Assembly: GCA_022750055.1 (NCBI GenBank)
Contig: JAKIWL010000003.1
Span: 181,300 to 245,299, forward strand
Direction: 5' to 3'
Length of the DNA stretch: 64,000 nucleotides
From: Thermoplasmata archaeon
GTDB lineage: Archaea; Thermoplasmatota; Thermoplasmata; Lutacidiplasmatales; UBA184
Under the pieces are notes generated by a model that worked only from the letters and a program-made list of their open reading frames with translations, was not told the DNA's origin and did not search any database. Position numbers and translations under genes: made by a program. Below are positions 7,289 through 28,782 of this stretch, piece after piece. Each line of letters opens with the position of its first letter. Position 1 is the stretch's first letter.

Positions 7289-7291
7289 TCC

Positions 7292-7720
7292 ATGGCCGAT
7301 ATCACCCTGATCTCCAAGGAGCAAGCGAGGGCCGGATTCGAATTCGTCTACCAAGGCGCCGCGCCGGTGTGCCGGACCTGTCCGTTCCGACACGCCTGCC
7401 TGACGCTCGATGTCGGACGGCGCTACCGCGTCGCCAAGGTCCGCCCGGTCGAGCACCCCTGCGCGCTGCAAGAGGTGGTGGCGAATGTGGTCGAGGTCGA
7501 GCCGATCTCACGCAGCCTGTTGGTCGATTCCCGCAGCGCGATCGTCGGCAGTTCCGTTGACGTGGGTCGGTTTGCTTGCTCGCGCCTGGATTGCCCGAAC
7601 TGGGATCCATGCGCCGGTCCATCTCTGCCGGTCCGACAGCGGTTCCTGGTCCAGAGCGTCCACCCATCGTTGGCCGAATGCCGGATCGGCAGAACCCTCA
7701 AGCAGGTGGAAGTGGTCTAG
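7292..7720 (+). CDS. UPF0179 family cysteine-rich protein
   Basis: A 142-residue protein of the archaeal UPF0179 family; its function is not known to me. Cysteines cluster in two groups, CRTCPFRHAC near residues 28-37 and ACSRLDCPNWDPC near residue 95, suggesting zinc or Fe-S binding. The intervening GRRYRVAKVRPVEHPC is characteristic. It starts three bases after the egsA stop and ends 16 bases before the tRNA-Pro gene, so it is likely carried on the egsA transcript. Confidence 0.85.
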   Translation: MADITLISKEQARAGFEFVYQGAAPVCRTCPFRHACLTLDVGRRYRVAKVRPVEHPCALQEVVANVVEVEPISRSLLVDSRSAIVGSSVDVGRFACSRLDCPNWDPCAGPSLPVRQRFLVQSVHPSLAECRIGRTLKQVEVV

Positions 7721-7736
7721 CGGACCCACGGGATGC

Positions 7737-7842
7737 GGGGCTGTGGGGTAGACACCGGGGGGCGCCATCGCCCTCTGGCTCGATTGGTCCATCCTTCGGG
7801 CTTTGGGAGCCCGGGACCCCGATTCAAATTCGGGCAGCCCCA
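7737..7842 (+). tRNA. tRNA-Pro (anticodon TGG) with a D-loop insertion, probably an intron
   Basis: Acceptor strands GGGGCTG (7737-7743) and CAGCCCC (7835-7841) pair perfectly, with discriminator A. The T arm is CCCGA-TTCAAAT-TCGGG and the anticodon arm CGGGC-TTTGGGA-GCCCG gives anticodon TGG. CCA is not encoded. The gene is 106 bases instead of about 75 because extra sequence lies between G15 (7751) and G18-G19 (7786-7787). The insert folds into a 9-bp hairpin (7755-7763 with 7770-7778). A relaxed bulge-helix structure can be drawn: helix ACCG/TGGT (7754-7757 with 7785-7788), a 3-base bulge GAT, and inner helix GGG/CTC. Cutting there would remove about 7753-7783 and leave a normal 75-base tRNA. 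The exact splice sites are inferred. Confidence 0.9.
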
Positions 7843-28674: not shown

Positions 28675-28782
28675 GCCCGTGTGGGGTAGCTTCGGGTTCG
28701 GGGACGTTCCCCATCCCGCTGCACTGGATTATCCTAGAGGCCTGCGGAGCCTCAGACCTGGGTTCGAATCCCAGCACGGGCG
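28675..28782 (+). tRNA. tRNA-Arg (anticodon GCG) with a D-loop insertion, probably an intron
   Basis: Acceptor strands GCCCGTG (28675-28681) and CACGGGC (28775-28781) pair fully, with discriminator G. The anticodon arm GAGGC-CTGCGGA-GCCTC gives anticodon GCG, and the T arm is CTGGG-TTCGAAT-CCCAG. CCA is not encoded. Total length is 108 bases because about 34 extra bases lie between G15 (28689) and G18-G19 (28726-28727). They fold as nested stems CGGG/CCCG (28693-28696 with 28715-28718) and GGGG/CCCC (28700-28703 with 28709-28712). Removing about 28690-28723 restores the normal D-loop AGCTGGATTA. The position matches that in tRNA-Pro. The splice sites are inferred and a canonical bulge-helix-bulge is not clear. 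Confidence 0.9.

Follow-up and report, generated by a model that had tools for sequence, protein, structure and literature searches.

The window, that is, the whole stretch of 64,000 nucleotides analysed here, carries on its plus strand a tRNA-Pro(TGG) gene at positions 7737-7842, whose D-loop is interrupted. The acceptor strand GGGGCTG (7737-7743) pairs with CAGCCCC (7835-7841) and A73 follows at 7842, the anticodon stem CGGGC (7797-7801)/GCCCG (7809-7813) encloses TTTGGGA with the anticodon TGG, and the T arm occupies 7818-7834. G15 lies at 7751 and G18 at 7786, and these coordinates confirm the 34 intervening bases counted in an earlier reading made from the letters of the DNA (the sequence-only reading). 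That reading had also described all the arms as perfectly paired, which is not true of the D stem, where T13xT22 and G10-T25 are found, the same as in an intron-less relative (L068) described below. The site of the insert is other than 37/38, and the rest of the gene is intact.

The gene is proposed to be composed of a 5' exon at 7737..7753 (the 5' strand of the acceptor, T8, G9, the 5' strand of the D stem, A14, G15, A16 and C17), an intron of 31 nt at 7754..7784, placed at the D-loop site 17/17a by comparison with relatives, and a 3' exon at 7785..7842 (T17a, G18, G19 and the remainder to A73), all on the plus strand. Within the intron, CCGGGGGGCG (7755-7764) pairs with CGCCCTCTGG (7769-7778) around the loop CCAT to give a hairpin, h' (7755..7778, plus strand), of 10 bp including two G-U pairs, instead of the 9 bp that had been counted before.

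On the raw window, neither ARAGORN nor Rfam at the gathering score detects any tRNA, and the tRNA-Pro(TGG) precursor is thus missed by both. ARAGORN calls tRNA-Pro(tgg) once 7754-7784 is removed, but the call carries little information on where exactly the junction lies: when a 31-nt deletion is slid along the gene, 28 of 76 positions give a tRNA-Pro call, and the test does not discriminate. In addition, a second intact tRNA-Pro(TGG) gene, which according to the sequence-only reading would mark this copy as a pseudogene, was looked for in the genome holding the window (1.52 Mb, 94%-complete) and was not found by BLAST at E <= 0.01; the two Pro matches at this threshold are the interrupted TGG gene and an intron-less GGG gene.

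Another interrupted gene in the window is tRNA-Arg(GCG) at 28675..28782 on the plus strand, with a proposed intron of 33 nt (28692-28724) at the same site 17/17a. The tRNA scans of the window (ARAGORN, Rfam) and of the genome both missed it; ARAGORN calls the spliced form as a tRNA and does not call the precursor.

Relatives of the gene and conservation of the insert

When the contigs of GTDB genomes were scanned by pattern for tRNA-Pro genes whose D-loop holds 22-52 extra nt, genes interrupted at the same place were found in 73 contigs, which are titled Thermoplasmata archaeon (69), Candidatus Lutacidiplasma silvani AcS3-62 (one), Euryarchaeota archaeon (two) and bacterium (one). The contig titled bacterium, DAIDCO010000009.1, bears an archaeal tRNA locus, and its label is probably wrong. 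By tblastn, one or more open frames from the first 16 kb of the window have a match in 72 of the 73 contigs, and the frame immediately upstream of the gene (7289-7717) is matched in 71 loci with a median identity of 68%; the loci therefore look orthologous, and the insert is no product of chance. These locus matches, rather than a tree, suggest a placement with or near Ca. Lutacidiplasma (Thermoplasmatota). Together with further relatives, the interrupted tRNA-Pro genes of these contigs make up 104 gene copies and 73 distinct sequences.

Moreover, a BLAST set of 61 genomes was used, consisting of the genome that holds the window and 60 relatives, of which 37, the former included, belong to the same genus. 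Full-length matches to tRNA-Pro(TGG) occur in 30 of these 37 genomes and G010 also has an inserted gene (L077), so that the insert is present in all 31 complete same-genus TGG genes read; the gene of G004 is cut by a contig end, and in five genomes (G006, G015, G022, G034 and G035) a TGG gene could not be read. G038, a member of the same order, possesses an intron-less tRNA-Pro(TGG) gene (L068) with matching exons, and intron-less tRNA-Pro(TGG) genes are also present in the seven class members inspected. The Pro(GGG) and Pro(CGG) genes of the genus are likewise intron-less (6 of 6 inspected), and they read TAGCTTGG or TAGATTGG across the site.

Among the 73 distinct relatives, the intron varies in length (28-36 nt) and in sequence, while the exon differences outside the pattern-fixed parts are almost solely compensated changes in the anticodon stem. 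All the relatives were selected or re-found by a pattern fixing parts of both exons, and consequently the exon conservation at those parts is partly by construction. The hairpin is kept in all 73 distinct genes. In every one of these sequences the fold of the insert is more stable than the average for 60 copies with shuffled bases, which preserve base composition and not dinucleotides, with z values of -1.1 at the weakest, a median of -3.0, 60 of 73 below -2 and -3.65 for the copy in the window. Furthermore, over nine positions of the hairpin arms compared ungapped, 79.8% of the cells are paired, as against 68.0% +/- 1.0% (maximum 71.1% in 1000 shuffles) when the arms are swapped between species, a contrast which is not to be read as a probability because the sequences are related; at ungapped positions 7 and 9, most of them have no pair. 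The alignment fold of the 73 sequences contains two-sided pair changes at helix positions 4 and 5. As judged from the arm swaps and from this alignment, the inner helix h' is kept by covariation.

Splice sites, pairing registers and rival explanations

The variable insert, the kept hairpin, the near-invariant exons and the intron-less gene of G038 all support the non-canonical D-loop intron which the sequence-only reading had proposed. The insert is very probably a non-canonical archaeal tRNA intron at the D-loop site 17/17a, cut by EndA and joined by RtcB. The insert, its covarying hairpin, the conserved exons, the intron-less relative and the genes for EndA and RtcB are given by the sequences; from them we infer the excision, the exact cut sites, the central helix and the acting enzyme as follows. 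In the precursor the intron would fold into the stable hairpin h', and the exon bases G12-T13-A14-G15 would pair, imperfectly, with the four intron bases directly 3' of the hairpin to form a central helix, H. This helix would expose two cleavage sites, one in the 5' bulge directly behind C7753 (position 17) and the other behind T7784, before T17a, and EndA would cut at both, whereupon RtcB would join the exons to produce a 75-nt tRNA-Pro(UGG).

The proposed 5' bulge is ACA (7752..7754, plus strand; CTA in 53 of 73 distinct relatives), with a putative cut after C7753. The proposed 3' splice site is ATT (7783..7785, plus strand), with a putative cut after T7784, and it would lie in a loop rather than in a closed 3-nt bulge, because no outer helix adjoins H in the proposed Pro register. 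The last two intron bases among the 73 distinct relatives are AC in 54, AT in 14, AA in 4 and AG in 1, the last base thus being C, T, A or G in the same numbers, and T17a, the base after the 3' cut, is T in 73 of 73. In the majority form, cutting between CT and A and between AC and T yields TAGCTTGGTCC, which is the intron-less sequence. Because the base before T17a varies, T17a is constant and this cut yields TAGCTTGGTCC, the intron was set at 7754-7784, at site 17/17a, and the mature tRNA-Pro is predicted to be 75 nt long. The 75 bases given by the sequence-only reading are therefore retained, but its excision of 7753-7783 was rejected on the same grounds and the boundaries were moved by one base.

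The intron strand of H in the window copy is CTCG (7779..7782, plus strand), opposite G12-T13-A14-G15 (7748-7751), where 2 of 4 pairs can form. Across the 73 distinct Pro genes, three of the four pairs are present in 67, all four in one and two in five, and since the window copy is one of these five, its H is among the weakest; the mismatch U13xC accompanies the strand CTCT in 65 of 73. Compared with a motif in which a central helix of 4 bp stands between two 3-nt bulges, the Pro intron would thus have, in the proposed register, a relaxed, bulge-helix-loop-like form, and H is weak in the window copy. In the distinct tRNA-Arg(GCG) sequences, H is fully paired (4/4) in 26 of 27. Free folding of the Pro precursor of the window did not form H and paired G15-A16-C17 with the bases at G19-C20a, and the consensus fold of the 73 sequences did not form it either, the partners of T13-A14-G15 there being G18, T17a and the final base of the intron; the free fold of the Arg(GCG) precursor is not a cloverleaf. 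The central helix ACCG/TGGT drawn in the sequence-only reading found no support and was rejected, its bases belonging to the conserved hairpin and to G18-G19-T20.

A competing register, in which TGGGG (8-12) pairs with the intron bases CTCTA, contains more pairs than the GTAG register, since it is complete (5/5) in 67 of 73 sequences and has 4/5 in the other six including the window copy; free folding yields yet different pairs, and a cut shifted by one base to 7753-7783 would leave the mature length unchanged. An intron with such another pre-tRNA register or such a shifted cut is nevertheless rather unlikely. The GTAG register is preferred because the usual cut two bases beyond H, a rule given in PMC4090602, would fall between A14 and G15 in the TGGGG register, that is, on the wrong side of G15, which would be removed, and because the same-site tRNA-Arg(GCG) has the GTAG register complete in 26 of 27 sequences. 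Against the shifted cut stand the variable base before T17a and the intron-less sequence given by the 17/17a cut in the majority form, as described above.

Alternatively, the hairpin might survive processing and lengthen the D-arm of the mature tRNA, in which case it would be part of the structure and no intron. Its presence in 73 of 73 distinct genes and the free folding, which leaves it inside a closed D-arm, would be in line with this, but the insert varies in length (28-36 nt) and sequence where the exons do not, an intron-less orthologue and intron-less isoacceptors exist, the T-loop inserts of 30-35 nt in the same genome would break the T-loop if they were kept, and the insert at the same site of tRNA-Arg(GCG) pairs with the exon like a splicing motif; we regard retention as improbable. 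Least credible of all, with a chance close to nil, is that the gene is decaying into a pseudogene or is a product of faulty assembly. The failure of ARAGORN and Rfam to find the gene and the weak central helix of the window copy might be taken in this sense, but the exons are conserved, the stem changes are compensated, the 73 distinct genes come from many assemblies and the neighbouring frames are common to 72 of 73 loci. CCA codons require a tRNA-Pro(TGG) gene, and no other TGG gene was found in the genome. Both readings were rejected; as to the pseudogene, the tRNA body is constrained and no functional copy was found elsewhere in the 94%-complete genome.

Other interrupted tRNA genes of the genus

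By pattern, 26 of the 37 genus genomes have the same-site intron of tRNA-Arg(GCG), as against 0 of 24 others. The initiator tRNA-Met also has a D-loop intron, with the central helix CAGG/CCTG and two AAA bulges; a pattern for it finds matches in 30 of the 37 genus genomes and, beyond the genus, in G053, which belongs to the same class but to a different family. The initiator tRNA-Met of G053 (L249) has a longer D-loop intron at the same site as in the genus, and therefore the site may predate the genus or have been hit twice. A pattern for T-loop introns at 59/60 has matches in 36 of the 37 genus genomes, in none of the 3 further genomes of the order and in 7 of the 21 further class members, where some of the matches in the seven class members are chance-like, that of G050 sits in a tRNA by eye, and some genus matches are chance as well, one of seven in the genome of the window looking like coding sequence. 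By drawing, the T-loop introns are close to the strict bulge-helix-bulge (BHB) motif because the T stem supplies the outer helix. Two T-loop-intron matches on one strand, separated by about 150-180 bases, occur in at least 14 genomes of the genus, as on C1 of G010 (L203), C26 of G025 and C108 of G023, and these probably represent a conserved pair of interrupted tRNA genes.

In the genome of the window, at least 40 tRNA genes were recognised: 32 from the scan, the anticodons of which were read by eye, and eight added by pattern and eye, namely Pro(TGG), Pro(GGG), Arg(GCG), Trp, Leu(TAG), Lys(TTT), Asp(GTC) and Gln(CTG). No tRNA for Ala(GGC), Ala(TGC) or His was seen among these genes. Non-canonical introns are present in 13 of the 40 recognised genes, ten of them in the T-loop (Glu CTC, Arg TCG, Gly TCC, Asn, Arg TCT, Ser GCT, Leu TAG, Lys TTT, Asp and Gln CTG; inserts of 30-35 nt) and five in the D arm (Pro, Arg GCG, initiator Met, Leu TAG and Lys TTT). 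tRNA-Leu(TAG) (L285, G000 C4) and tRNA-Lys(TTT) (L304, G000 C1) apparently have one D-arm and one T-loop intron each. After intron removal, ARAGORN calls all 13 genes with the expected anticodon; 4 of the 10 T-loop precursors, however, are called even before splicing, and on these precursors the test is uninformative. Canonical 37/38 introns were recognised by eye in tRNA-Tyr, an anticodon-CAT tRNA (L021), tRNA-Leu(TAA) and tRNA-Trp, and the total comes to 19 introns in the 40 recognised genes. For 217 archaeal genomes a mean of 0.21 introns per gene is given in PMC8450103, and for the Thermoproteales one of 0.84.

The sequence-only reading regarded a D-loop intron here as unusual; the non-canonical nature stands, but the case is not an isolated one, the genus being rich in such introns. 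That the insert of tRNA-Pro(TGG) would be one of many non-canonical introns in an under-studied archaeal genus is well supported by these gene comparisons. Scans without intron models miss tRNA genes in these genomes.

The splicing endonuclease and comparison with known systems

The genome of the window contains one RtcB gene and one open frame with two PF01974 matches, and no further PF01974 match was found in it at E <= 1. Residues 21-335 of the 353 of this EndA match A. fulgidus 1r0v in a single stretch (E 4.7e-27); the lowest E-value is that of 5x89, in separate stretches. The motifs KTGFKYG.HF and VRK, which we take to be the catalytic residues, are in the C-terminal half. The subunit type, which the sequence-only reading had named as a check, appears from these matches to be alpha'2-like, with two fused PF01974 units in one chain and without the CSL/ASL loop. 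The CSL/ASL insertion before the SLxE motif is absent in 13 of 13 genus EndA proteins covering the region, all of which keep the A. fulgidus spacing where it would sit; the 13 come from 14 proteins extracted, 31 genus genomes had a match, and G000 and G027 were read by eye. 3p1y is longer at this position and by alignment is the A. fulgidus chain with an extra stretch; it is presumably the CSL chimera.

The point of interest is that non-canonical introns are paired here with a loop-less alpha'2-like endonuclease. In the reviews, alpha4 and alpha'2 enzymes are limited to canonical BHB introns, scattered relaxed introns are tied to heterotetrameric or three-unit endonucleases, and the CSL/ASL loop is linked to relaxed introns (PMC4090602, PMC4033280, PMC6379350); the EndA enzymes of A. 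fulgidus and T. acidophilum are classed as narrow (PMC6379350). Given this rule, the D-loop introns are unexpected and the T-loop introns less so. However, the rule may be softer than stated, because the alpha'2 EndA of A. fulgidus excises a bulge-helix-loop intron at 37/38 from full-length pre-tRNA (PMC6379350) and two euryarchaea with multiple-intron tRNAs are tabulated in PMC4033280. In addition, the ASL added to A. fulgidus EndA gives a wider specificity (PMC12397907), and the homodimeric enzyme of Ferroplasma cuts minimal BHB substrates (PMC8707768). We give an even chance to the view that non-canonical introns, relaxed D-loop ones included, have spread in the genus to roughly one in three tRNA genes, a figure counted in one genome only, while an alpha'2 EndA without CSL/ASL was kept. 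If this is true, a loop-less EndA would have another way of cutting relaxed motifs, and the kinds of intron open to an archaeon would not be set by the subunit type.

Sites 20/21 and 59/60 are among the known non-canonical intron positions, and the tRNA-Pro(UGG) of P. islandicum has introns at 25/26 and 56/57, as cited in PMC4090602. Site 17/17a does not appear in the list of sites given in the text of that paper, which ends in "etc.", and its novelty is not claimed. Non-canonical introns outside the Thermoproteota are not new as such, because the BHB models in PMC8450103 were built from introns including euryarchaeal ones. In a title-level literature search no title reporting these introns in the Lutacidiplasmatales was found, and the main text of PMC9287336, on the Lutacidiplasmatales, contains no word starting with "intron".

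The non-canonical introns of the Thermoproteota, Nanoarchaeota and Nitrososphaerota, which have BHB or relaxed hBH/HBh' motifs, are alike in being short hairpins off the anticodon loop, several per genome and even two in one gene, whereas here the host belongs to the Thermoplasmatota, the site is 17/17a and the EndA is alpha'2-like instead of a heterotetramer. With the canonical 37/38 introns, which are cut by alpha4 or alpha'2 EndA, the present case shares the enzyme type, and the genome also has such introns, but the position is different and the motif is relaxed in the proposed register. ARMAN-2, with its epsilon2 EndA, is likewise an archaeon outside the Thermoproteota with dispersed relaxed introns, as described in PMC12397907 and PMC6379350, but the EndA here has two units and is without the loop insertion. 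The present lineage appears to loosen the link between scattered, relaxed introns and the type of endonuclease, and it offers natural substrates together with one small enzyme.
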